This document shows, piece by piece, positions 26,048-62,730 of a DNA stretch of 64,000 nucleotides. The DNA is from Bradyrhizobium sp. AZCC 2262 (GTDB lineage: Bacteria; Pseudomonadota; Alphaproteobacteria; Rhizobiales; Xanthobacteraceae). The stretch is from the NCBI RefSeq assembly GCF_036924535.1, contig NZ_JAZHRT010000001.1, forward strand, positions 8,122,001 to 8,186,000. Direction: 5' to 3'. A program made the position numbers and the translations under genes. The number at the start of each line of letters is the position of its first letter. Position 1 is the stretch's first letter. Below the pieces are notes generated by a model. The model worked only from the letters and a program-made list of their open reading frames with translations, was not told the origin of the DNA and did not search any database.

Positions 26048-26473
26048 TTATTCGTGCTCATTGATAGCAATTGTCTTAACGACCCTTTCAGGCTCCGGCC
26101 TGGCAAGGTCTATCGACAACAGCCCGTTTTTCAGATCCGCGCCCAGCACGTGCATCCCCTCCGCCAGCACGAAGGTGCGCTGGAAGTGGCGCGCGGCGAT
26201 GCCGCGATGGATGTATTGCCGGGCCTTGTCGTCCTGCTGGCGGCCCCGGATCACGAGCTGGTTTTCCTCAATGGTCACATCGAGTTGGTCGCGGGTAAAA
26301 CCCGCCACCGCCAACGTGATGCGCAGGCGTTCGGGTTGGCCGTTGGCACGGTCACACCGCTCGATGTTGTAGGGAGGATAACCGTCGGCGCCTTTGACGA
26401 CGCGATCGAGCGCACGCTCGATTTCGTCGAACCCAAGCAGGAACGGACTGGATAACGAAGGAACACGAGACAT
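26048..26473 (-). CDS. Small heat-shock protein, Hsp20/IbpA family
   Basis: A 141-residue alpha-crystallin-type holdase. N-terminal arm MSRVPSLSSPFLLGFDEIERALDRV; alpha-crystallin domain about 35-125 with LRITLAVAGFTRDQLDVTIEENQLVIRGRQ and IHRGIAARHFQRTFVLAEGM; C-terminal signature GLLSIDLARPEPE, where the usual A-x-x-x-NG-x-L is KNGLL. The start is ATG 26473, two bases past a ROSE hairpin that hides its ribosome site. A consensus RpoH promoter lies 87 bp upstream. This is class A of the rhizobial Hsp20s by similarity. It binds unfolding proteins upon heat shock. Confidence 0.97.
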   Translation of the reverse strand: MSRVPSLSSPFLLGFDEIERALDRVVKGADGYPPYNIERCDRANGQPERLRITLAVAGFTRDQLDVTIEENQLVIRGRQQDDKARQYIHRGIAARHFQRTFVLAEGMHVLGADLKNGLLSIDLARPEPERVVKTIAINEHE

Positions 26474-26553
26474 TACAAAGTCCTCTCGAAGCGACTTTGA
26501 GGGGCCCTTGCGGCGCCCCATTCAACCGGCCGGCCGACTTGCCGTCCGGTCAA
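26474..26553 (-). promoter_or_regulatory. ROSE-type RNA thermometer in hsp20 5' leader
   Basis: The last hairpin of the leader (minus strand) is CAAAGUC..GACUUUG, with the inner pairing of 5'-UCGCU against the ribosome site 5'-AGGA, one G bulged, loop UCGAG. This is the U(U/C)GCU signature of ROSE elements. A second hairpin upstream is GGGGCGCC-GCAA-GGGCCCC, and a GC-rich CCGG stem precedes it. Leader length (about 80 nt) fits known ROSE elements, which melt at heat-shock temperature to free the ribosome site. Confidence 0.92.
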
Positions 26554-26559
26554 GGAACA

Positions 26560-26587
26560 ATATGGGGTGATTCGGGGTGGGTTCAAG
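26560..26587 (-). promoter_or_regulatory. RpoH (sigma32) promoter of hsp20-DUF1150
   Basis: Minus strand: CTTGAA (26582-26587), 14-base spacer, CCCCATAT (26560-26567). This matches the heat-shock consensus CTTGAA-N13/15-CCCCATnT essentially perfectly. The predicted start is near 26553, giving the 80-nt ROSE leader. Confidence 0.92.
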
Positions 26588-26631
26588 CGCCTCTGAAAGC
26601 TGCGTAAATCGGCCGCGGCGGGTTACAAAAC

Positions 26632-26713
26632 CGTCATTCCGGGGCGGCGCGAAGCGTCGAACCCGGAATCTCGAGATTCCGGGTCTGGTCCTTCGGACCA
26701 TCCCGGAATGACC
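26632..26713. repeat. Palindromic intergenic repeat, family B copy 3
   Basis: CGTCATTCCGGGGCG at the left, ACCCGGAATCTCGAGATTCCGGGT in the middle, CCCGGAATGAC at the right; same layout as 5299-5379 and 9018-9099. It lies between the hsp20 promoter and the end of ugpC. Confidence 0.85.
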
Positions 26714-26716
26714 GAA

Positions 26717-27808
<1,092 letters not shown>

Positions 27809-49506: not shown

Positions 49507-49827
49507 TCAGACCGCAGCAGTGATCCACTGCTGCAGCTTCGCCTTCGGCGCGGCGCCGACCTGGCGGGAGGCCATCTCGCCGCCCTTGAAGATCATCAGG
49601 GTCGGGATCGACATCACGCCGTATTTCGAGGCCGTCTTCGGGCTCTCGTCGACGTTCAGCTTCACGATCTTGACCTTGTCGCCCATCGCGCCGGAAATCT
49701 CGTCGAGGGCGGGGGCGATCATGCGGCAGGGGCCGCACCACTCGGCCCAGAAATCGACGACCACCGGCCCGGTCGCCTTGAGCACTTCGGCTTCGAAATC
49801 GGCGTCAGAAACCTTGCCAACGGCCAT
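49507..49827 (-). CDS. trxA: Thioredoxin
   Basis: A 106-residue thioredoxin, the usual length. The redox pair is Cys31/Cys34 in [14 protein letters not shown]; the cis-Pro is in [11 protein letters not shown]. It reduces cytoplasmic disulphides with NADPH via thioredoxin reductase. It ends the divL-addAB transcription unit, 105 bp after addA, and probably also has a promoter of its own. Confidence 0.97.
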
Positions 49828-49932
49828 GGGAATTACCTCGTTCAGTTAGGAATTAAGCGGCGCAGGATGAGAATCGCGCCCGGGATGATAGCGTCAAACC
49901 TATGAACGCGATCCTGCCGGGTCAAGCACGGG

Positions 49933-52900
49933 TCACGCCGAGATGATGGATGCCAGCTCGGCCTCCAGCGCGGGGGCTGAAATCTCCATTAATTCAGCGG
50001 TTTCGGTCCAAAGCAGCGCCGCTCGGACCATCCGCTGGGGATAAAGCTTGCCAAGCACCGCCCGGTACAGCGCGAGCTGGCGGACATAGCCCCTCGGCGC
50101 CTCGTCAGGCCGGCTCGGCGGGGCGTGGTTGGTCTTGAAATCGACGATCAGGACCTCGCTGTCGGTGACGACCAAACGGTCGATCTGCCCGGATACCAGC
50201 GCCGGCCGGCCGCCTGGCCGCTCCAGCCGCCCGACGATCGAGACTTCGGCGCGGCTGCCGGGGGCAAACACGGCCGCGAAGCGCGCATCCGCAATCAACG
50301 CCAGCGTGCTTTCGGCCAGCGCCTGCCGTTCCTCCTCGATCCAGCCATCGGCATTGCGGACGAGATAGGCCAGCGCGGCCTCGCGGCGGCGCGGGGCCGC
50401 GATATCGGGCAGCGATTGCAGGAGCCGGTGCACCAGCGTCCCGCGCTGCAGGGCGCGGGCGCGTTGCGTGAGCGATTCGGCCGTCCGTACCTTGTGGCTA
50501 TCGTCATCTGCGGGGTCGGATGGCCGCACAAAACTTTCTGCTGAAATTTCCGGCTGCGCCGGGGTCAGCAGCCAGTTGGGCAGCACCGTCGACGCCGGCG
50601 GGGACGCCGCAGCAGCGGGAGCGGCCGACGGCGCGGTCTCCCCCGCTCGGGTATAGCGCTTCACCCGGCCTACCGCGGTTTCGAGCTCCTGAAGCTGCAA
50701 GGTGGAACCGGCGAGACCCTTGGTGATCAGATCGTACCAGGACAGCGGCCGCACGCTCTTCATGTTGCCGGGCAGGCAGCCGCCGACGATCAACCTGTCC
50801 GCGGCGCGCGTCATCGCGACATAGAGCAGGCGGCGGTACTCATCTTCGGTATCGTCGATCATCGCCGCGCGGGCCGCGACGACGGCCGGTGGATCCTCGG
50901 CCTTGCGGCCGGCCCAGACCACCACGCCCGGCGCATGCGGATCGGCATTGCCTTGCGGCAGGTTGATGAGTTTTAGCCGCTGCGTATCCGAGGGCGACGT
51001 CGTGGTGTCCACCAGGAAAACGACGGAAGCCTCCAGTCCCTTGGCGCCGTGCACGGTCATGACGCGAACCTCGTCGCGCGAGATTTCCATGTCGCGCTTC
51101 ACCTCGAGATCGGCGGTGCGCAGCCACGCCATAAAGCCCTGCAACGAGGCCGGCGCCTTGCGTTCGTAATTCAGCGCCAGCTCCAGAAACTCATCCAGCG
51201 CGTCGTTCGCTTCGTGTCCGAGCCGCCGCAGGATTCGCGCGCGTCCGCCGTCACCGCCCAGCAGCCAGGCATAGAACGCAAAAGGCGTCTCGCGGGCAAA
51301 GCGGCGTTCGCATTGTTCGAGCCGCCACAGCGCATCCCTCAACCGGCCATCAGCCGAAGCGCGCTCGGCCAGTGTCGCGCGCAACGATCCCTTGCGCTGC
51401 CAGGCGATCTTGAACAGGTCGTCGTCGGATAACCCGAACAGCGGGCTCTTCAGCGCTACCGCCAGCGCCAGATCATCCTGCGGCAGCAGCAGCGCGTCGG
51501 CGAGGTTCATCAGGTCGATGATCGCGATATGCTCGGTCAGCTTGAGGCGGTCGGCGCCAGCCACCGGGATGCCGGCGTGCTTCAGCGCCTGGATCACGGC
51601 GTCGAACGCGTTGCCGCGCCGCCGCACCAGCACCAGCATGTCGCCAAAGCGCAGCGGCCGTCGGGCATTCCTGCTGCCGGTCATCACGCCGCTGCCGACC
51701 AACGTCTTGATCTCGGCCTGGATGCGCCGGGCAAGCTTCACTTCGGGGCTGGTCGCGGCAACGCCGTCGAACGGCGCCCGCCAGCCTTCGATGTCCTGCC
51801 GGTCGTCGGCTTCCGCCAATTCCCAAAGGTCGATCTGGCCGGGCCCTGCGTCGGCCAGCGCATGATGGATCGGATTTCCGATATCGACCGCATGAATGCT
51901 GCGAAAGATATCCTGCTCGCGAAACACCTGATCGACCGCATGCAGGATCTCCGGTCCCGACCGGAACGAATAGGTAAACGACACCGGATCGAACTTCAGT
52001 CCGGCGCCCTCGAACTTCCGCTGCAAGGCGCGGCGGCGCAGGTCGAACTCGCGTGGGGCTGCGCCCTGGAACGAAAAAATCGACTGCTTCTCGTCGCCAA
52101 CCGCGAACACCGTTCGCACCACGCCATCACGCGCGCCCGCGCCCGAAGTGAATTCGGAGATGATGTGCGCGACGATGTCCCATTGCCGCGGGCTGGTGTC
52201 CTGCGCCTCGTCGATCAGCACATGGTCGACGCCGCGGTCGAGCTTGTAGTGCACCCAGCCGGAGGAGACGCGGTCAAGCATCTCCAGCGTCTTGTCGATC
52301 AGATCGTCATAGTCGAGCAGCCCGCGTTCCTGCTTCTCACGCCGGTAATTGGCCGCCGCTGCGGTCGCGATATGAAGAAGCGCCTCAGTGCGGTCGCGCG
52401 CGATTACGGCGCGGCGCTTCGCGATCAGGGGCGCGAGGCGATCAATCTCGGATTCGAACAGGCGTCCAACCGCAGGATTGTCCCGCGCAAAGTTCTTTGT
52501 AACGACAGATTTACGCGGCGTGCGATCGGCGTCGGTGAGAAACACGCAGAGATACTCGTCCACCTGGGCTGCACCGGAAAACGCCAACGCGGCGCGAAGC
52601 TGCGCGGCCTGGCCCTGATCGGTCTTGCTCCCGGTATCGAGGACCTGGGCGATTTCCTGCCAGTGCGACCGCGGCAGGTTCGGTCCATCCAATATCTCGC
52701 GCTCGACGTCTTCAATGCGATCATCGGGCTCGACGCCGAGCGCGGCGGAAGTTTGCGCGGCGGCCGCCTGCGCGCTGCCGGCGGCGTCTGTCCAGGCCAT
52801 GAAATGATCGCGGCTGAGACAGGCCTCGCGCACCACGTCCTTGAAGGTGGCGTCGGCCGCGCTCGCCATCGCCGTCATCAGCGCGCGGCCCGTCGCGCTG

Positions 52901-53430
52901 TCGGGGTTGCGCGACGCTTCGAGGAAAACGCCGAGATTGGCGCGCTCCATCATCTCGTTCTGGTCACGATCGTCGAGCACGGCAAACCGCGCCGGCACAT
53001 TCGCCTCGAACGGGAATTGCTGCAGCAGCCGCGTGCATAGTGCGTGAATCGTCTGCACCTTCAGCCCGCCCGGCGTCTCCAGCGCGCAGGCGAACAGTTT
53101 GCGCGCTGACTTCCTTAGGCGCGCACTGGGATGGGGAATGCCGGCATCGCGGATCGCCGCATCCAGCGCGTCGTCGTCAAGCGTCACCCAATGGCCGAGG
53201 GTGGTGAAGACGCGCTCCGCCATGTTGGCCGCGGCGGCTTTTGTAAAAGTGATGCAGAGGATTTTTTCCGGCGCGACATCGTCGAGCAGCAGCCGGATCA
53301 CCCGCTGCACCAGCACATGGGTCTTCCCCGAGCCGGCGTTGGCCGAGACGAAGGCGGAAGCCGCCGGATCGGATGCACGCGCCTGGGTGGCGCGAACGGC
53401 ATCGGGAATGACGCGCGCAGTCTTCACCAT
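49933..53430 (-). CDS. addA: AddA, ATP-dependent helicase-nuclease subunit A
   Basis: A 1165-residue UvrD-type helicase and nuclease for double-strand-break repair (the RecBCD substitute). Motif I is SANAGSGKTHVLVQRVI; motif II is VLIDEAQDTSPRQWDI; motif III is GDEKQSIFSFQGA; a motif V/VI equivalent is MTVHGAKGLEASVVFL; the C-terminal nuclease is SGQIDRLVVTDSEVLIVDFKTNHAP. The start at ATG 53430 overlaps the end of addB by 7 bp. Unwinds and resects DNA ends to load RecA. Confidence 0.97.
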   Translation of the reverse strand: MVKTARVIPDAVRATQARASDPAASAFVSANAGSGKTHVLVQRVIRLLLDDVAPEKILCITFTKAAAANMAERVFTTLGHWVTLDDDALDAAIRDAGIPHPSARLRKSARKLFACALETPGGLKVQTIHALCTRLLQQFPFEANVPARFAVLDDRDQNEMMERANLGVFLEASRNPDSATGRALMTAMASAADATFKDVVREACLSRDHFMAWTDAAGSAQAAAAQTSAALGVEPDDRIEDVEREILDGPNLPRSHWQEIAQVLDTGSKTDQGQAAQLRAALAFSGAAQVDEYLCVFLTDADRTPRKSVVTKNFARDNPAVGRLFESEIDRLAPLIAKRRAVIARDRTEALLHIATAAAANYRREKQERGLLDYDDLIDKTLEMLDRVSSGWVHYKLDRGVDHVLIDEAQDTSPRQWDIVAHIISEFTSGAGARDGVVRTVFAVGDEKQSIFSFQGAAPREFDLRRRALQRKFEGAGLKFDPVSFTYSFRSGPEILHAVDQVFREQDIFRSIHAVDIGNPIHHALADAGPGQIDLWELAEADDRQDIEGWRAPFDGVAATSPEVKLARRIQAEIKTLVGSGVMTGSRNARRPLRFGDMLVLVRRRGNAFDAVIQALKHAGIPVAGADRLKLTEHIAIIDLMNLADALLLPQDDLALAVALKSPLFGLSDDDLFKIAWQRKGSLRATLAERASADGRLRDALWRLEQCERRFARETPFAFYAWLLGGDGGRARILRRLGHEANDALDEFLELALNYERKAPASLQGFMAWLRTADLEVKRDMEISRDEVRVMTVHGAKGLEASVVFLVDTTTSPSDTQRLKLINLPQGNADPHAPGVVVWAGRKAEDPPAVVAARAAMIDDTEDEYRRLLYVAMTRAADRLIVGGCLPGNMKSVRPLSWYDLITKGLAGSTLQLQELETAVGRVKRYTRAGETAPSAAPAAAASPPASTVLPNWLLTPAQPEISAESFVRPSDPADDDSHKVRTAESLTQRARALQRGTLVHRLLQSLPDIAAPRRREAALAYLVRNADGWIEEERQALAESTLALIADARFAAVFAPGSRAEVSIVGRLERPGGRPALVSGQIDRLVVTDSEVLIVDFKTNHAPPSRPDEAPRGYVRQLALYRAVLGKLYPQRMVRAALLWTETAELMEISAPALEAELASIISA

Positions 53431-56400
53431 TCCTCGATCCCCAGTCCGCCGGCCGCTGACCATTCCTTGATCCGGGCGAGATCGTCATAGGCGCCGTAGC
53501 GGTTCGACCACATCGACAGGTTAAGCGACGTGTAGGCGGTCTCCTCGTTCTCGAATTTGCGGATCAGCGCTTCTAGCTGTTCGAGCGCGTAGTCGGCCGC
53601 CTCGTCCGGCCGCTGCGGCGTATCGTTGTTCCTGATCTTCAGTTCCAGCGAGCGCTGTTCGCCTGGCGGATTGTTGCCGCTGAGCCTGACATAGACGAGT
53701 TCGCCGACGGATGAACCGGCGTGAGTATTCTCAAAGCCGCCCTCGCGCAGGATCGCAGCCTCCAGCGTCAATTGCGGTGACAGGCCCATGCGAACCTGTT
53801 TTCCCGTCGGCGGCTGGCCGGTCTTGTAATCGAGGATCGCAAAGCTGCCGTCATGGCGCTGCTCGATCCGGTCGGCGCGCGCGGACAGCGTGAAGATGCG
53901 TTCGTTGTCGAGCGGAATTTTGATCTCGCCTCTGATCTCGGCGGCAATTTTCTCAATATCGTCGCGCCGCGCCTCTTCCCAATCCGCAAACCACGCGGCG
54001 ATGCGCTGGAATCGCGGCCACCACAGCGCGCGCGCCTCCGGCCGTTCCATCAGCGGCGCGAAAAATTTCTCGCCGATACCTCGCAGCACCAGCGCGGGCT
54101 GGGCGGGGAGGGCGTCCGCGAACTTTTGCGTGAATTCGCCGAGCGCGTCATGGATCGCCGAGCCGCGGTCGGCCGCCGACAGCGGCATGTCGACGGGGTC
54201 GAGCGGATCGAGCCGCAAAATATATTTCGCGTAGATCGTATAGGGATCGCGTAGCCAGTCCTCGATCGCCGTGACCGACAGTTTTAGCGGACGCGTCGCG
54301 ACCGGCGGTTTTGGCGCAGGCTGCGCAATCGGTTCAACCGCGTCGGGCTGGTCCAACTCGCCGGCGAAGCGGACATAATTTTCACCGGCGCTCTTGGCCT
54401 CGTCCCAGCGCGCTTCGCCGGCGACGGCCTCCAACCGGTGCAGAAAGCGCGAGGCGACAGCCGGCGCGCCGCCGACCTTGGCAGAATGGGTCAGGATCAC
54501 ATCGTCCGTTCCCAGCAATTGCGCGAAGTCATGCGCGGAAAGGCCGATGCGCCGCTCCGGCAAATCGAGGCCGAGTTCATGGCGCATCGGCCGGCTCAGC
54601 CAGGGATCGACCCGCGGCGCCGGCGGCCACACGCCTTCGACCAGCCCGCCGAGGATGGCGCGGTCGGATTCGGTCAGCCGCGCTTCGAGCTGGCCGTAGA
54701 TGTGCAGATGCGCGCTCGCCGATTCCGGCCGCCGCACCATGCGATCGGCATAGGCGGTCTGGAAAACATCAGGGTAATCGCCGAGCTGGACCATCAGGCC
54801 ACTCGGCTTCTGTTCGGCGAGCAGGTCGTCGAACGCCGCTGACAGCGCAGCGCCTTGCGCTTCCTCGAAGGCGATTGCAACGCCGTTTTGATCCGAGGAT
54901 AGCGCGATCAGCGTTTCGCGGTGGCGTTGCGCCAGTTCGGCGAAATCGAATGGTTTTGACGAGCCCATGACTTCCAGCGGCGCCAGCGCTTTTTGCAGCG
55001 CCGCGATCAGCGTCTGCGCCTGGTCGAGTTCGTCATCCCTCAATTTCGCGCGCGGCTCGGAGGCGTGAAGCGAGGAGATCTCGTGGCTCCTGAGCTTCCT
55101 GAGCTCGACGCGGAAACGATCGAAGTCGCGCGCCAATCCGGCCGTTCCCGCCTGCGGCCGGGTGCCGCGCAGCAGCGCCAGTTCGAGGATTTCGATGGCG
55201 TGCTTGAACGTGCCGGACGCGTGGCCTAGCCGAAACAGCGGATGTTTCAGCAGTGCGAGCAAAGTCGGCGGCTCCAGCCCCTTGCTGGTAGCTTCCGCGG
55301 CAAGGCGGGCAAAAATGCCGCCTGGTGTATCCATCAGCGCATCGCCGCCGGAATCGTCGAATTCGAGATTCCAGCGGGTCAGCGCCGCCATCACCCGCCG
55401 CGCCAGCGCGCGATCGGGCGTCACCAGCGCCGCCGATTTGTTCAGGTGCCGCGCCTCGCGCATCGCCACCGCAATTGCCAGCGCCTCCATTTCCGAATTG
55501 GGCGCTTCGACGACGGCTAGCTTCGCGATGCCGCCTTCGATCCTTCGCGCGACTTCCGGTTGGACCAGACGATCGTGCCATTGTTCGGTCGCGCTCGAGG
55601 GGCGCATCGTCTCGGAGACCAGTATCTCGCGTCCCTGCGGACCTGGCGTGCCGAGAATTTCGACGTCGCTTCGCTTGATGCCGAAGCGATCCAGCAGACC
55701 GTGCATCGCGAATTGCGGATGGTTCGAGGAGGGCTGCGTGGTGAATTTACCCTGCGCGTCTCTGACGCCGCCGATCGTCTGCCAGGCTTCCTCGTCGAGA
55801 TCGGTGTCGAGCCCCGGCAGCACCACCGCGCCCAACTTCAAGCCGGCCACGGCGGTCAGGAATTTTGCGGTCGCCGGCATCGAACCGGTCGAGCCGGCTG
55901 CAACCACCGGCCCCTCATGATGTGCGGTCAGGCGGGCGGCTTCGGCCTCTATCAGGCGGTCGCGCCGTTCGGCGGGTTCGATCCGGCCGATTTCCTTCAG
56001 ATGCTCCGGCCACGCCTTGCGCGCGATGCGCAGGAATTCGAGCGAGTGCTGCCAGTATTTGTCGAACTGGTCGGGGACAAGTTTGTCGAGCGCTTCCCAG
56101 GCGACGCCGCGCGTCACCATGTCGTCCATCAGCCGCGCCAGGTCGCCGGCCAGCGCCAATGTCGAGGCCGGGCCGCCAACCACGAGCGGCGCCGACACCG
56201 GACTTTTCGCCCATGCCGCGACCAGATGCGCCAGCGTCAGGCGGCGCTCCAGCTCGCCGAGTCTCGGCGGAACGTCGAGCGGTGCCACGCCGCCGAATTG
56301 TTCGGAGCCTTCCGCAAACGCCAGCTCGTCCTCGTCGATGTCGCCGAGCGCCACGATGCGCGGCAGGATCGCAGCGTCGGTCTTCAGCTCATCGAGAAAG

Positions 56401-56570
56401 ATTTCCCGCGCCAGCCGGCCGGCGCGCCGGGTCGGCAAATAGAGCGTCGCCGTTGCGAGATTGAGCGGATCCCTGCGCGCCTCGAATCCCTCGACCAGCC
56501 GACCGTCGACCAGCGCCGCGATGACGGTGCGCAGGAAAGGGACGGATACGGGAACGCTGAAAACGCGCAT
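53424..56570 (-). CDS. addB: AddB, double-strand break repair nuclease subunit
   Basis: A 1048-residue partner of AddA. A degenerate helicase-like N-terminus with no P-loop (LYLPTRRAGRLAREIF) and a C-terminal RecB-type nuclease: GSAIHDALGEF.. and FAILDYKTGQPPTGKQVRMGLSPQLTLEA (D-x-K and Q motif). I could find no cysteine anywhere in the protein, so the Fe-S cluster of the Bacillus AddB type is absent, a feature known as an alphaproteobacterial variant. Overlaps addA. Confidence 0.95.
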   Translation of the reverse strand: MRVFSVPVSVPFLRTVIAALVDGRLVEGFEARRDPLNLATATLYLPTRRAGRLAREIFLDELKTDAAILPRIVALGDIDEDELAFAEGSEQFGGVAPLDVPPRLGELERRLTLAHLVAAWAKSPVSAPLVVGGPASTLALAGDLARLMDDMVTRGVAWEALDKLVPDQFDKYWQHSLEFLRIARKAWPEHLKEIGRIEPAERRDRLIEAEAARLTAHHEGPVVAAGSTGSMPATAKFLTAVAGLKLGAVVLPGLDTDLDEEAWQTIGGVRDAQGKFTTQPSSNHPQFAMHGLLDRFGIKRSDVEILGTPGPQGREILVSETMRPSSATEQWHDRLVQPEVARRIEGGIAKLAVVEAPNSEMEALAIAVAMREARHLNKSAALVTPDRALARRVMAALTRWNLEFDDSGGDALMDTPGGIFARLAAEATSKGLEPPTLLALLKHPLFRLGHASGTFKHAIEILELALLRGTRPQAGTAGLARDFDRFRVELRKLRSHEISSLHASEPRAKLRDDELDQAQTLIAALQKALAPLEVMGSSKPFDFAELAQRHRETLIALSSDQNGVAIAFEEAQGAALSAAFDDLLAEQKPSGLMVQLGDYPDVFQTAYADRMVRRPESASAHLHIYGQLEARLTESDRAILGGLVEGVWPPAPRVDPWLSRPMRHELGLDLPERRIGLSAHDFAQLLGTDDVILTHSAKVGGAPAVASRFLHRLEAVAGEARWDEAKSAGENYVRFAGELDQPDAVEPIAQPAPKPPVATRPLKLSVTAIEDWLRDPYTIYAKYILRLDPLDPVDMPLSAADRGSAIHDALGEFTQKFADALPAQPALVLRGIGEKFFAPLMERPEARALWWPRFQRIAAWFADWEEARRDDIEKIAAEIRGEIKIPLDNERIFTLSARADRIEQRHDGSFAILDYKTGQPPTGKQVRMGLSPQLTLEAAILREGGFENTHAGSSVGELVYVRLSGNNPPGEQRSLELKIRNNDTPQRPDEAADYALEQLEALIRKFENEETAYTSLNLSMWSNRYGAYDDLARIKEWSAAGGLGIEEW

Positions 56571-56654
56571 GGGCTTCCTGATTCGAGGTCAGGCGCCAAT
56601 ATAGGGAGGTATTGGGAGGAGGTCATGGGTGAGGGTGAGGATGCCCACCTCTCT

Positions 56655-56788
56655 GTCGTCCCGGCCAAGCGAAGCGCGAGCCGGGACCCATACCGCGTTG
56701 TGCCCTCGGCTCAAGGCGAGATGGCGGACGTTCGTCGCAACAAATGAGGGCCGGTGGTTATGGGTCCCTGCCTTCGCAGGGACGACGA
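56655..56788. repeat. Palindromic repeat, family D copy 2
   Basis: CGTCCCGGCC..GCCGGGACCCAT and GGTTATGGGTCCCTGCCTTCGCAGGGACGACG. Outer arms and the CATAACC motif match the element at 31082-31219. It fills the 230-bp gap between murU and addB. Confidence 0.75.
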
Positions 56789-56800
56789 TAGTTGGGCGAC

Positions 56801-57523
56801 TCAAGCCACGCTTTCCAGAAACGCCTCTTCCGCGGCCTGCACCGCGTCGGGGGTTCCGACGTGCATCCAGACGCCGTCGAGCCGCAAGCCGAATAGCCGT
56901 TCTTGCTCGTTGGCGCGGTCGAACATTTTTGTCAGCGAAAACTCGCCGGCGGGCGCGTCGGCAAACAGCGAGGGCGACATGATTGCCGCGCCCGCATAGA
57001 CGAACGGCACCACCTGGTGTTCACGCCGCTTGCGCAACGCGCCGTCCGGCAGCATGGCGTAGTCGCCGCGTCCGGCATAGCCGATGCTGCTTGTGGTCGG
57101 CGCCATCAGGAGCAGGATGTCCATCCGGTCGGGATCGAAGGTTTCGGCGAGCCGCGCCAGATTGGGCCGCACGCCGTCGATCCACATCGTGTCGGCGTTG
57201 AGGTGGAAGAACGGCTCCTTGCCGAGCAGGGGCAGCGCCCTCACGACAGCGCCGCCGGTGCCAAGCACGACGTCGCGTTCGTCGGAAATGATGATGCGGG
57301 GCCGGACGCGGCTCGCGGTGTGCCGGATGATCTGGTCGGGCAGGTAATGCACGTTGACCACGGCCTCGCTGACACCGGCGTTGGCGAGCTTGTCCAGCAC
57401 GTGATCGAGCAGCGGCTGGCCGGCCACGCTCACCAGTGGCTTCGGCATGTGGTCGGTCAACGGGCGCATGCGCAAACCGAGACCGGCGGCAAGAACCATG
57501 GCTTTGGTGGGCGTAACGGACAT
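56801..57523 (-). CDS. murU: N-acetylmuramate-1-phosphate uridylyltransferase (MurU-like)
   Basis: A 240-residue nucleotidyltransferase: KAMVLAAGLGLRMRPLTDHMPKPLVSVAGQPLLDHVLDKL is the G-x-G-x-R..PKP signature; FHLNADTMW carries the metal-binding Asp. It converts MurNAc-1-phosphate to UDP-MurNAc in cell-wall recycling. The neighbouring AmgK-like kinase supports MurU over GDP-mannose or glucose-1-phosphate enzymes, which cannot be excluded by motif alone. Start at ATG 57523. Confidence 0.88.
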   Translation of the reverse strand: MSVTPTKAMVLAAGLGLRMRPLTDHMPKPLVSVAGQPLLDHVLDKLANAGVSEAVVNVHYLPDQIIRHTASRVRPRIIISDERDVVLGTGGAVVRALPLLGKEPFFHLNADTMWIDGVRPNLARLAETFDPDRMDILLLMAPTTSSIGYAGRGDYAMLPDGALRKRREHQVVPFVYAGAAIMSPSLFADAPAGEFSLTKMFDRANEQERLFGLRLDGVWMHVGTPDAVQAAEEAFLESVA

Positions 57524-57650
57524 TTTTGGAATTTCTCGAACCATCAAATCGCGCCGCGGATCATACCACGGCGAGGAGCTTGAACCAGCAACCATGAGGC
57601 CTTAGTTGCCGCACATGACGGCCGTACGACGGCCGCCGGGGGGCCAAACC

Positions 57651-57974
57651 TCAGACCTCAGCGTCCTCGGCCCCGCGCCTGGCTGCCTTCTTCTTCTTGT
57701 CGCCCTGCTTCAGGAAGTTGACGCCGATCTGATCGCCGTTGACCCAGGCCAGCTCGCAGCGCCGATAGGCAAGCCCGGTGGACGACAGCAGCAGGAAGAA
57801 TTCCTTTAAGTGCAGGCCCTCGACCGACCCTTCGACCGTCAGCTTGGCGCCGGTCTCGGAGACGTCTTCCATCACGCAGTCACGCCGCCAGGTGCCGTCG
57901 ATGCCCATCATGTGCGCCGCAAAGCCGCGCTCGAATACGATCCGATCTCCCTTGCGACGTTCCGCCCCCGCCAT
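57651..57974 (-). CDS. PilZ-domain protein
   Basis: A 107-residue single-domain PilZ protein. The c-di-GMP motifs are partly present: RRKGDRIVFER (RxxxR-like) and EDVSETGAKLTVEG (D/N-x-S-x-x-G). It ends with a Lys-rich tail (KQGDKKKKAARR). It probably senses c-di-GMP or is a degenerate relative; downstream target unknown. It lies between tsaE-amgK and murU on the same strand, 127 bp before murU. Confidence 0.85.
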   Translation of the reverse strand: MAGAERRKGDRIVFERGFAAHMMGIDGTWRRDCVMEDVSETGAKLTVEGSVEGLHLKEFFLLLSSTGLAYRRCELAWVNGDQIGVNFLKQGDKKKKAARRGAEDAEV

Positions 57975-58063
57975 GGCCGTCTTCCCGTGTCAAACTGAAT
58001 GCGCCGTGCCTCCGCGGCATGGCCTGTTCCAGAATAAGTGCGAGGTGGCTAACAGGAGGTAAA

Positions 58064-59584
58064 TCAGGGAAGCGGCGGCGGTACGTTGGCGGCATACCAT
58101 TCGCGAAACGCCGCCAGCGCCGGGTGCGCCAGCGAGCGGTTCAGGTAGGTCCAGATCCGGGGCTGGTGGCGCAGATATTGCGGCTTGCCGTCGCGCCGGT
58201 TGAGCCGGGCGAAGGTGCCGAGCAGGCGGGTATTCCGCTGCGCCGACATGATGGCGTAAAGTTCGGCGAAACTGGCCGGGTCGAACTGAGCATCGGCGGC
58301 GCGGCGCGCCTTGATGTAGCGGGTCAGAAGCGTCAATTCGAGTTGCTCGGCAACGTCGATCCGCGCGTCCTGCAGCAGCGACACCAGATCGTAGGCGGCG
58401 GGGCCAAGCACGGCATCCTGGAAGTCGATGATCCCGACACGCAAGATCCCCGTACGGTCGCCGAGCCAGATGATGTTGGGCGAATGAAAATCCCGCATCA
58501 CCCAGGTTCGCGGCGCAGCCGCCGGCTTTTCCAGCAACGTTCGCCACATCGTGACGAATTCGTCGCGCTGTTGCTGGCTGACTTCGGCGCCGCGATCCGG
58601 CAGATACCATTCCAGCATCAGGCTGATTTCGACCAGCCATGTGTCGATATCGTAGACCGGAATTCTGTATGGGCCCTGCGGCTCCAGCGGCGCGGTTTCG
58701 GGCAGGGCTTTGCGATGCAGCTCCGCCAGCATGTCGGTCGCCACCTCGTAGCGCTCGACGATCGGTCGCGGCGGGTCGCCTTCGATGACGCCGGCGCTGC
58801 CAAAATCCTCGGTGATCAGGAAACCGGAATTCAGATCGGAATGCCGGATCGCGGGCGCAGAAAAACCGTGCGCGCGCAGGCCATTGTCGATGGCGACGAA
58901 CGGCTTGACATCTTCGGCCAGATGAACGGCCGCGCTGTAGGATTTTCCCTCATAGATCGCAGGACCATCCGGCCGGCGCGGCGAATTCATCAGGATCGAC
59001 GTGCTGTCGTCGCGGACCAGCCGCGCATAGGAGCGCGTCGAGGCGTCGCCCGGCATGCGCTGGCGCTCCGCATCCAGGAAGCCGGAATCGCTGAGAAACT
59101 TTCGCAAGCTCGTCAATCGCGTCACCTGGGCGGCCGCTTTTCCATAGCCGGTGATTTCGGCGGCGCGCGCGGTGGACCCGAGCGCCGGGCGATGGCTGAA
59201 GGCGATGTCGATGCGATCTTCGGGCATCGCATCGGGTGCGCGTTCCGGCCATTCGATCAGCGCCAGCGTGCCCTCCGGCAGCGGCGACAATCCGATTTCC
59301 TCCAGCTCGCTCGAATCAGTGATGCGATAGAGATCGGCGTGAAGAAGCGGAAACGGCAAATCGTAGCTCTGCGCCAGCGTGAATGTCGGGCTTGGCACTT
59401 CGAGTGCGGCATCGTTGGCGAGATAGCGGATCATCGCCCGGGCTGCGGCCGTCTTGCCGGCGCCGAGATCGCCGGAAAGCGTGATGACGTCACCCGGACC
59501 GACCAGCAGCGCGAGGTCGGTCATCAGATGCGCCGTCGCCGTCTCGTTCGCCAGCGCGACCGTGAATGTCGCTGATACTGTCAT
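58064..59584 (-). CDS. TsaE-AmgK fusion (tRNA t6A ATPase plus sugar kinase)
   Basis: A 506-residue fusion. Residues 1-150 are TsaE: GDLGAGKTAAARAMIRYL (Walker A) and PSPTFTLAQSYD..LLHADLYRI, needed for tRNA N6-threonylcarbamoyladenosine. Residues 170-506 are an APH-fold kinase like AmgK: catalytic loop VMRDFHSPNIIWL and metal site VGIIDFQDAVLGP. AmgK phosphorylates MurNAc at C1 for MurU. The kinase and MurU genes sit in the same unit. The start overlaps the divL stop by 4 bp (ATGA). Fusion is known in rhizobia. Confidence 0.94.
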   Translation of the reverse strand: MTVSATFTVALANETATAHLMTDLALLVGPGDVITLSGDLGAGKTAAARAMIRYLANDAALEVPSPTFTLAQSYDLPFPLLHADLYRITDSSELEEIGLSPLPEGTLALIEWPERAPDAMPEDRIDIAFSHRPALGSTARAAEITGYGKAAAQVTRLTSLRKFLSDSGFLDAERQRMPGDASTRSYARLVRDDSTSILMNSPRRPDGPAIYEGKSYSAAVHLAEDVKPFVAIDNGLRAHGFSAPAIRHSDLNSGFLITEDFGSAGVIEGDPPRPIVERYEVATDMLAELHRKALPETAPLEPQGPYRIPVYDIDTWLVEISLMLEWYLPDRGAEVSQQQRDEFVTMWRTLLEKPAAAPRTWVMRDFHSPNIIWLGDRTGILRVGIIDFQDAVLGPAAYDLVSLLQDARIDVAEQLELTLLTRYIKARRAADAQFDPASFAELYAIMSAQRNTRLLGTFARLNRRDGKPQYLRHQPRIWTYLNRSLAHPALAAFREWYAANVPPPLP

Positions 59585-62112
59585 TCGGCGGCGTTGCGAT
59601 GTGCGTTCTGATCGATCGGAAAGTCGCAGGTGACCGTGGTGCCCTTGCCGACCACCGAATCGACGCGCACCTTGCCGCCGTGCAGTTCGACAAAGGAGCG
59701 CACCAGCGACAGGCCGAGGCCGGCGCCGCGATGACGCGAGCCGTGGGAGTGGCTCTCGAACCAGTCGAACACCTTGTCCTTCACCTCAGCCGGAATGCCA
59801 GGGCCGGAATCGCTGACGGTGAAGATCACGCGATGCTCGGTACGCCGCGCGCTGATCGTGACTGCGGCATCGTGCGGCGAGAATCCGACGGCGTTGGCGA
59901 GCAAATTATAAAGCACCTGCACCACGCGCCGCTCGTCGCCGGTGAAGTTGCCGATATTGGAATCGATGTCGACCTTGAGTTCGATGCGGTCGGTCGCCAG
60001 CCGATCCTGAATGCCTTCGGCGGCAGCCCGGATCGCTTTCTCGATATTGACCGGGCCGAGCTCGAGCTTCATGGCGCCGGCATCGATGGTGGCGAGATCG
60101 AGGATGTTGTTGGTGAGCGCGAGCAGCGCGTTGGTCGATTTGGTGACGTAATCGAGATATTCGGCCTGCTTCGTCGTCAGCGGGCCAGTGGAGGGATCGC
60201 TGAGGAAATGCGCAAAGCCGATGATGGTGGTGAGGGGCGCGCGCAGTTCGTAGGACACGTGGTGGACGAAATCGACCTTCATCTGGTCGGCGGCTTCCAG
60301 CGCCTCGTTGCGTTCGCGCAGCGCCCGCTCGACATTCTCGGTGTCGGTGATGTCCTGGAAGGTCAGCATGGTCGCGCCGTCCGGCAGCGGCATGGTCATG
60401 CAGTCCAGCACGCTGCCGTCCTTGCGCTCGAGTTTCAGCGCCACCTGCGCCCGGTTCTCGATTCCCGTGATCGCTTCGCGCAGCGCCCGCCAGGTGAGCG
60501 CGTCGTCGAACAGCGGCTTGCACCACGCTTCGACGGTCTCGATGTGGGGTTGCTCCTTCAGCGATTCCGCCGACAGCTTCCACATTTTCTCGAAAGCGGG
60601 ATTGAACAATTCGACCCGACCATTGCTGCCGAACACCGCGACCGCTTCAGCCAGATTGTCGAGCGTCTCATGCTGGACCCGGGTCAGCCGGTCGTAGCGG
60701 CGTGCAAGATCGAGGCTCTCGGTGACATTGTCGAATAGATAGGTGACGCCGCCTTCGAGGTTCGGCGTAGTGACGACGCTGACGGCGCGCCCATCGGGCA
60801 GGAACCAGGTGTAGTTCTCGGGCTCCAAGGCGCGATAGGCTTCGTGCAGCTTGGCCTTCCAGGCCCGGAAGTCGGGCTGTTCGGGTAGCTTGCGCGCCGC
60901 GCGCAGCCGGTCGAGCACGCTCGAATCGTCCGGATTGGAATCGAGGAAGGCCTGGTCGAGGCCCCACAGCCGCCGGTAGGATTCATTGTAGAACGCAAGC
61001 CGCCGCTGGCTGTCGAACACGGCGACGCCCGATGACAATTGATCGAGGGTGCGGCGATGGGCTTCCGCCATCCGCTCCATGGCGTCGCGCAACGCGGTCG
61101 CCTCGCTGGCGTCGATGGCGATGCCGGCGCTGCCGCCGCTAAGTCTGAGTGCCTGCACGTCATAGATGCGCCGCTCGCCGCCGACCACGATCGGCAGCCG
61201 CGCACTGAAAGTGGCATTGTCGTTCAGCATCCGGCCCATTTCGGCGCGCTGGTCGTTCTCCAGGAGCTCGAGGTTGCGGTAGATGGCATCCGCGACGCTG
61301 GCGCCCTCGGTGGCCCGCACATAGGCTGTGTTGGCGTAGCGCAGATTGCCCTCGCCGCTCTTGGCCCAGATCGGCCAGGGTGCCGCGGCGGCGAAGTCGC
61401 GCAGCAGCTCGGTCTCTTCGACAAACGTCCTGTAACGGAGATTGGATTCGGCGAGTTCCCGGCGCAATCCCCCGAGTTCGCGAATCCGCACAACGGCTTG
61501 CCCCCCGATGGCACGGCCCATCGCTTCGATGGCGCGGCCGTTCGAGGTGGAGAGATTGAGCAGAAAGCCTTCGCCAGCCTCGCGCAGCGCGTCGACCGCA
61601 TGATCCATCTGCAGCGCCGGTTCCGGTGGCAGCCAGGTTCCAAAGGCGAGGATGCGTTGCGGTGAATTGGACAGCGCGTCCTGCGAGATCAGAAGCGAGG
61701 TGTCGCCGCTGATCTGGGGCCGGTTGTCGCCCGCCGCCCAGGCGATCAGGATCTGGGGTTCGGCGAACAGGAGCGCGCGCAGCCGGTCGGCCTGCACCTG
61801 CAGGTCGGCGATGTCGGAGCGCAGGTTGAGTTCCACCCGGCTGGCCCGAATGCGCGTGCGCATCAGCAGGATCGCAGCCACCACGGTAAAGCCGAGCAGC
61901 GACAGCGCTGTCGTCAGTGCCGCAAATTCCTGGTGATTGAGGTCGAGCAGGGCGGAAATCGCCTGTGGGATGGTCAAGTCCGCGGCCAGCGCGGGTTCCG
62001 GCGAGACGGAGAGGGCGGTGGCGAGCGCAATCACGCCGTTGCGCGCCAGTGAGGTGCACGACAGCAGGGTTCGACGCATTCCCGCGACTACGCCCGACAT
62101 TATTTGCCCCAA
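59581..62112 (-). CDS. divL: DivL-type PAS sensor kinase with tyrosine H-box
   Basis: An 843-residue membrane kinase: signal-like start (residues 20-44), a TM helix near 62-85, then PAS domains (about 240-330, 345-455 and 475-590), a dimerisation domain and an ATPase domain (NLLANAVGFSP, DSGPGIP, GAGLGLSLVRS). The H-box reads FVHHVSYELRAPLTTI with Tyr621 where kinases have His. In Caulobacter, DivL has the same change and regulates CckA-CtrA. Five GANTC sites precede the gene. It begins the divL-tsaE/amgK-pilZ-murU-addB-addA run. Confidence 0.9.
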   Translation of the reverse strand: MGQIMSGVVAGMRRTLLSCTSLARNGVIALATALSVSPEPALAADLTIPQAISALLDLNHQEFAALTTALSLLGFTVVAAILLMRTRIRASRVELNLRSDIADLQVQADRLRALLFAEPQILIAWAAGDNRPQISGDTSLLISQDALSNSPQRILAFGTWLPPEPALQMDHAVDALREAGEGFLLNLSTSNGRAIEAMGRAIGGQAVVRIRELGGLRRELAESNLRYRTFVEETELLRDFAAAAPWPIWAKSGEGNLRYANTAYVRATEGASVADAIYRNLELLENDQRAEMGRMLNDNATFSARLPIVVGGERRIYDVQALRLSGGSAGIAIDASEATALRDAMERMAEAHRRTLDQLSSGVAVFDSQRRLAFYNESYRRLWGLDQAFLDSNPDDSSVLDRLRAARKLPEQPDFRAWKAKLHEAYRALEPENYTWFLPDGRAVSVVTTPNLEGGVTYLFDNVTESLDLARRYDRLTRVQHETLDNLAEAVAVFGSNGRVELFNPAFEKMWKLSAESLKEQPHIETVEAWCKPLFDDALTWRALREAITGIENRAQVALKLERKDGSVLDCMTMPLPDGATMLTFQDITDTENVERALRERNEALEAADQMKVDFVHHVSYELRAPLTTIIGFAHFLSDPSTGPLTTKQAEYLDYVTKSTNALLALTNNILDLATIDAGAMKLELGPVNIEKAIRAAAEGIQDRLATDRIELKVDIDSNIGNFTGDERRVVQVLYNLLANAVGFSPHDAAVTISARRTEHRVIFTVSDSGPGIPAEVKDKVFDWFESHSHGSRHRGAGLGLSLVRSFVELHGGKVRVDSVVGKGTTVTCDFPIDQNAHRNAAE

Positions 62113-62153
62113 AAACGCACGACTGCAGGCCCGGCGCTACCCCCGCCGAACAC

Positions 62154-62273
62154 GAATCGGGCTGAGAGTATCCCCTTCACGAGTCGAGCGGTAAGAGTCC
62201 AGACCGTGAACTCAAATTTGGCTGTGAAAAATTCAGCTAGTTACCGTTGAGAGTCGTCTTTACTAGACGATTC
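62154..62273. promoter_or_regulatory. Cluster of five GANTC (CcrM) sites in the divL promoter region
   Basis: GAATC at 62154, GAGTC at 62181, 62195 and 62251, GATTC at 62269. All lie within 160 bp before divL (ATG 62112); the last overlaps the dut stop. About 0.5 sites would be expected in 120 bp by chance. In alphaproteobacteria GANTC is methylated by CcrM and read by GcrA. Regulatory effect is inferred. Confidence 0.6.
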
Positions 62274-62730
62274 AGCGTCCAGTCGAGCCGAAACCGCCAC
62301 TGCCGCGATCGGTTGCTGAAAGCGACACCACCGGAACCAGTTGCGCCTGCACAACCGGCGCAATCACCATCTGCGCGATGCGCTCGCCGCGCCGGATCGG
62401 GAACGGCGTATCGCCGTGATTGATCAGGAGGACGTTGATCTCGCCGCGATAATCCGCGTCCACCGTGCCCGGCGAATTCAAGACGGTAACACCATGCTTG
62501 GCGGCAAGCCCGGAACGCGGCCGCACCTGCGCTTCAAAGCCGGAAGGCAGGGCTATTGTGAGCGCGGTCGGCACCATCGCGTATCTGCCCGGTGGCAGGA
62601 TCAGCGGCGTGTCCGCGGGAACTGCGGCCAGCAGGTCGAGCCCGGCGGCATCCGCGCTCTGATAGGCTGGCAGCGCGAGACCTTCGCCGTGCGGCAATTG
62701 GTGGATATCGACCTTCACTGTCGCGCTCAC
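62272..62730 (-). CDS. dut: dUTP diphosphatase
   Basis: A 152-residue trimeric dUTPase hydrolysing dUTP to dUMP and PPi. Motif 1 is AGLDLLA; motif 2 is [11 protein letters not shown]; motif 3 is [17 protein letters not shown]; motif 4 is [12 protein letters not shown]; motif 5 is [10 protein letters not shown] at the C-terminus. Starts at GTG 62730 overlapping coaBC (GTGA). The coaBC-dut pair is conserved. Confidence 0.98.

Follow-up and report, generated by a model that had tools for sequence, protein, structure and literature searches.

Several Caulobacter promoters that depend on GcrA and CcrM carry GANTC sites within the promoter, among them mipZ, podJ, pleC, flaY and tipF, with a weaker dependence for ctrA P1. 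Mutation of GANTC cripples the mipZ, podJ, flaY and pleC promoters but not one at CCNA_00697 (PMC3667746). Start sites with GANTC between the -10 and -35 elements are activated at 40-60 min, the interval in which cell-cycle start sites with GANTC outside these elements reach their minimum (PMC4287350). More than one GANTC in the 50 bp upstream is seen at 11 of 96 cell-cycle start sites (PMC3667746, PMC4287350). The promoters activated by GcrA have been assigned an extended motif, YGAKTCG (PMC7987155). In Brucella abortus the ChIP peaks of GcrA are enriched in GANTC (PMC6813329), and in the Rhizobiales GANTC is found in 50% of ctrA promoters (PMC8116508). The latter study counted upstream GANTC by order and, like the present work, concerns a gene of the CtrA pathway in the Rhizobiales; its counts are for ctrA, and we met no such count for divL in its accessible parts. 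For C. crescentus and B. subvibrioides, divL has been reported as a member of the GcrA regulon (PMC7987155), the same gene and the same proposed regulator as in the locus described here. A survey in that paper, which took one genome per order and ignored the position of the site, found divL likely to be regulated in only a few of 13 species. The text names none of these species outside the Caulobacterales, and its Rhizobiales representative could be one of them. GcrA targets are described there as quickly rewired, and divL is counted among the auxiliary genes (PMC7987155). In contrast to one genome per order, we compared 70 loci of a single order for both the site and its spacing.

The stretch of DNA analysed, referred to as the window, covers 64,000 nucleotides of Bradyrhizobium sp. 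AZCC 2262, the genome of which is one contig of 9,475,967 bases. We identified divL as the longest open reading frame at 59581..62112 on the minus strand, which encodes a PAS-HisKA-HATPase protein (Pfam). The H-box reads SYELRAPL, placing a tyrosine at the position of the phospho-accepting histidine, a replacement that we take to be the mark of DivL. Among the best 80 of 293 matches, the closest named DivL proteins are from Bradyrhizobium, order Hyphomicrobiales, with identities of up to 96%. The longest frame begins with a TTG codon at 62112; the ATG at 62100, which follows GGGG, appears the likelier start. The gene for dUTP diphosphatase, dut (62272..62730, minus strand; NCBIfam), is transcribed in the same direction and leaves a gap of 159 bp between the two genes. 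Downstream of divL, further genes on the same strand occupy 49507..59584, as judged by Pfam and ORF positions. They encode in order a TsaE-APH fusion, which overlaps divL by 4 bp, a PilZ protein, a nucleotidyltransferase, a PD-(D/E)XK nuclease, a UvrD-like helicase/nuclease and a thioredoxin. The PD-(D/E)XK nuclease is probably AddB-like and the UvrD-like protein AddA-like, and if the downstream genes are co-transcribed the divL promoter could reach recombination genes too.

The dut-divL gap contains five GANTC sites in 120 bp, as the initial annotation had stated. Numbered from the divL side they are C (62154-62158), B (62181-62185), A (62195-62199), D (62251-62255) and E (62269-62273), the last of which shares two bases with the dut stop codon. 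The annotation had put the excess at roughly ten times chance. We sampled the same genome, taking the window and 20 further segments of 20 kb each (464 kb in all, from 9.48 Mb) and separating coding from non-coding DNA by a simple home-made ORF rule. GANTC occurred in this sample at 1.69 per kb of coding and 3.14 per kb of non-coding DNA, so that a density of five sites per 120 bp exceeds the non-coding rate about 13-fold. Equal density in other intergenic DNA, which the annotation had named as evidence against a special role, was not observed, the sampled non-coding density being much lower. Over the whole window we counted 150 GANTC, where dinucleotide shuffles predict 331, and the motif is thus depleted across the window overall.

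What matters at this locus is the placement of three of the sites around the predicted promoter and not the number five. Reading along the divL strand one meets first GTTCACGRTCTGGACTCTTACC, next site B, then TANNNT and finally YGATTCG. Site A (GGACTCT; 62195..62199, minus strand) adjoins a -35-like hexamer, TTACCG (62189..62194), to which we would assign the -35 role and which stands 18 bp from the predicted -10, TACTCT (62165..62170), a match to a TANNNT that is conserved before C. Site B (62181..62185) lies in the predicted spacer between these elements, and site C (62154..62158), which reads CGATTCG on the divL strand and fits YGAKTCG, sits at the predicted +1. With TANNNT as the -10 (62170-62165), A would extend over about -41/-37, B over -27/-23 and C over -1/+4. 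Site A is held within a conserved 22-mer, GTTCACGGTCTGGACTCTTACC, of near-invariant columns (62190..62211), and upstream of this lies a conserved run of T (62228..62231; 0 to 3 changes per column) that may be an UP-like element. The distal sites D (62251..62255) and E (62269..62273) complete the set, all of these features being on the minus strand. A plain sigma-70 consensus scan for TTGACA/TATAAT-like elements over 62050-62350 returned 0 promoters, and the assignment of the -35 and -10 elements therefore rests on conservation.

The predicted position of B is close to that of the GANTC in two Caulobacter promoters, ctrA P1 at -29 and podJ P2 at -24 (PMC4287350), while C fits the extended motif of GcrA-activated promoters (PMC7987155). 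The number of sites differs, with one described at ctrA P1, two described at mipZ and three at divL here, spaced by 13-14 and 26-28 bp. Unlike those Caulobacter promoters, the divL promoter has one site at the predicted +1, and the layout is kept in the Bradyrhizobium group and in other families. The literature that we covered on GANTC, CcrM, GcrA, divL and the Rhizobiales, mostly titles, the beginnings of abstracts and passages, with few subscription journals, gave no description of a rigid three-site array at divL. The array is best read as a variant of the known CcrM/GcrA type of promoter, at a gene for which a link to GcrA has been reported in other bacteria.

We compared the window with the best 80 of 293 loci at the level of the genus; of these 81 sequences all but L018 include DNA upstream of divL, which leaves 80. 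Counting the window, site A is kept in 79 of the 80, B in 75 and C in all 80, with all three present in 74. Site A is missing in L009, which reads GAACTC, and B in L003-L006 and L077. The distance between A and B is 14 in the loci of the Bradyrhizobium group, and that between B and C is 26 in 64 of the 80 loci, 27 in 14 and 28 in 2, the value for loci without B being derived from site A. Conservation in relatives, which the initial annotation had made a test of its reading, therefore extends to A, B and C and fails for the two distal sites: among the anchored loci, window included, a GANTC is found at about the distance of D in 6 and within a 7-bp range at the distance of E in 15. Site C matches YGAKTCG in 80 of 80 loci, the same motif accounting for 147 of the 907 GANTC in the own-genome sample, and among 77 anchored loci A matches it in 0 and B in 2. 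In 38 anchored loci of the group we also observed an extra GANTC 18-21 bases upstream of A that is absent from the window.

To follow the individual letters we built a tree from divL DNA (FastTree, midpoint-rooted) for 77 loci, four of the 81 having been dropped by the anchor rule (L009, L010, L018 and L047), and counted parsimony changes for each column. Sites A and C show 0 changes in all five letters. At B the letters change 1, 2, 12, 0 and 1 times, giving 4 changes in total for the four fixed bases and at least 12 for the free centre base. The fixed letters of B hold while its centre shifts between C and G, which indicates that the site is kept as GANTC. For comparison, columns of the neighbouring spacer change 8 to 16 times, and those 40 to 50 bases before A change 24 to 32 times. 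The TTAC columns of the -35-like hexamer have 0 to 2 changes each, the columns of the 22-mer 0 to 3 save for one with 11, and TANNNT precedes C in 76 of the 77 anchored loci. In 30 of the 80 loci C is separated from the divL start used by over 100 bases, exceeding the distance in the window by about 100 (for example L003:3850-4015); the length of the leader varies among loci while the promoter array stays constant.

We considered what else the conserved block might be. An RNA leader was rejected on the grounds of 0 matches to Rfam over 61900-62500 at E up to 1, together with the position of most of the block upstream of the predicted start. A small coding ORF in the gap is not favoured, because close relatives do not share a constant B-C distance, the difference being one or two bases. 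Nor did the searches point to a wider regulon of the block: with up to 3 mismatches allowed, the 22-mer matches the genome once, at the divL promoter itself. An order-level sequence model (R1) run against the same genome returned the divL promoter with E 6.3e-7, and two partial matches with E 0.59 and 1.7.

Of 199 genomes of the order, 191 gave a DivL hit, and from these we assembled 70 loci of 36 families, consisting of the 30 best hits and 40 hand-picked for family spread, and so not a random sample. A pair of GANTC at the B-C or A-C distance is present in 44 of the 70 loci, representing 17 families; 24 of the 26 loci without a pair have YGAKTCG. Among the 63 loci outside the own family, pairs accumulate at distances of 13 (11 pairs), 26 (16), 27 (7) and 39-41 (22) bases, and the other distances up to 60 occur 1 to 4 times where at all. 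Taking one locus per family (35), we counted 12 pairs at 26-27 against 0.77 expected, a number reached in 0 of 5000 permutations, and 5 pairs at 13-14 against 0.82 expected, reached in 10 of 5000. When the null was made harsher by crowding the sites, no more than four per locus, into 200 bp, the result for 26-27 was again 0 of 5000. The extended motif lies within 520 bases upstream of divL in 68 of the 70 loci, all except L099 and L145, where about 15 would be expected from the background in far-upstream DNA (0.45 per kb). Outside the own family 38 loci have a pair, and in 37 of them YGAKTCG stands at the C-type site and, likewise in 37, TANNNT precedes it.

Three control genes from the window, rpsA, rpoN and uppP (named by NCBIfam; 30 best loci each), were treated in the same way. 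The extended motif was found upstream of divL in 29 of the 30 best loci compared with 1 for rpsA, 9 for rpoN and 14 for uppP, and a GANTC pair in 21 compared with 0, 1 and 1. Any GANTC at all was seen upstream of rpsA in 17 loci, one flank being short (L249); in 8 of the 30 rpsA alignments there were stops near the start, which shifted the window examined there. The uppP motif count exceeds the background estimate, which makes the presence of the motif a weaker sign than the spacing. Outside the order we took 40 divL-like loci from 84 genomes of the class with a hit (L178-L180 left out), a set that may include kinases other than DivL and in which few loci could be aligned, so that the gene was placed by coordinates. 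YGAKTCG was near the start in 8 of these 40 against about 9 expected, which is no enrichment, and conservation of the array across the class was not found in these loci.

The genome contains predicted genes of both the CcrM and the GcrA type. An ORF of 377 residues carries N6_N4_Mtase and RAMA domains, the latter (PF18755) matching once in the genome, and its best-matching model is NF050803 (CcrM), at 611 bits against a cut-off of 830. The GcrA family (PF07750) gave five matches over the cut-off (L081, L082, L083, L084 and L085), three of them nearly full length in frames of 183-202 residues. From the sequence evidence we consider that the dut-divL gap probably contains a CcrM/GcrA-dependent promoter of the sigma-70 type that serves divL and perhaps also the genes behind it. 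CcrM would methylate A, B and C, and GcrA together with RNA polymerase would open the promoter through these sites in their methylated form, chiefly through C. Passage of the replication fork would leave the promoter hemimethylated and so tie transcription to replication of the divL locus, and the DivL produced in this way would feed into CckA-CtrA control. The occurrence of the same layout in many relatives of the order suggests that expression of divL may be tied to DNA replication via methylation there also. The initial annotation had judged a switch of divL expression coupled to methylation to be plausible, and this proposal gains support from the retention of A, B and C, the layout in many families of the order and the predicted CcrM- and GcrA-type genes. 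If the layout is kept across many sampled families of one order, divL would be a stable target of GcrA in that order; the conserved layout would connect replication with the CckA-CtrA pathway at the point where DivL enters it, and would supply a natural series of promoters in which the position of the site could be tested against the effect of methylation. A more elaborate version, which we put forward tentatively and think doubtful, is a composite replication sensor in which GcrA and the polymerase read the three sites jointly, with B as the activating site and the off state determined by A and C, such that fork passage sets the timing of a divL pulse, which might include the AddAB-like genes, in much of the Hyphomicrobiales.

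The conserved block could also arise if the promoter were bound by another regulator, the GANTC letters belonging to the site of that protein, for example a GTTC-N7-GGAC dyad overlapping A, and methylation being incidental. Site A speaks for this reading, being invariant including its centre base and flanks and lying within the nearly invariant 22-mer. In addition, GTTC is found at A-12 in 6 of 6 loci of the own family; among the 20 others that have an A-like site, 6 carry GTTC there and 4 more carry GTAC. However, B holds the fixed letters of GANTC while its centre and flanks vary, and the C-type motif is present in families without the GTTC box, and we regard this explanation as unlikely. 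General enrichment of GANTC in intergenic DNA, with no special role at divL, would agree with the non-coding density of 1.9 times the coding value measured here and with the intergenic bias reported for the class (PMC3973325). This reading is contradicted by the conservation, the spacing and the control genes, and we give it practically no credence; the tree and the control-gene tests rule out chance and plain intergenic enrichment as the source of the array.

It is conceivable, if improbable, that methylation represses the promoter. Sites A and C are outside the -35/-10 spacer, and full methylation would then keep the promoter low until the fork had passed, in line with the Caulobacter start sites that have GANTC outside the -10/-35 region and are lowest at 40-60 min (PMC4287350). 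The position of B points the other way, since start sites with GANTC in the spacer, where B is predicted to lie, are those activated at 40-60 min (PMC4287350), and C carries the extended motif that has been tied to activation (PMC7987155). Repression of this kind is also a methylation switch, and differs from the GcrA-activated promoter that we favour in its sign.

The count of five sites at the dut-divL gap is rare in this genome, not unique, and it is the position and the conservation of three of them that stand out. Windows of 120 bp with five GANTC were found at three places in the 464-kb sample, the dut-divL gap, L120:1195-1259 and L132:2720-2780. At L132 the five sites follow an exact 15-bp spacing, which stems from a coding repeat (SRGHE) close to the end of a DEAD-box-helicase-like ORF. 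Those at L120 are apparently non-coding and lie upstream of an ORF that we named by eye as alpha/beta-hydrolase-like. Elsewhere in the window, a small protein is predicted (ORF 26048-26521, minus strand) that has four GANTC in the 200 bp upstream of it (26522-26721).
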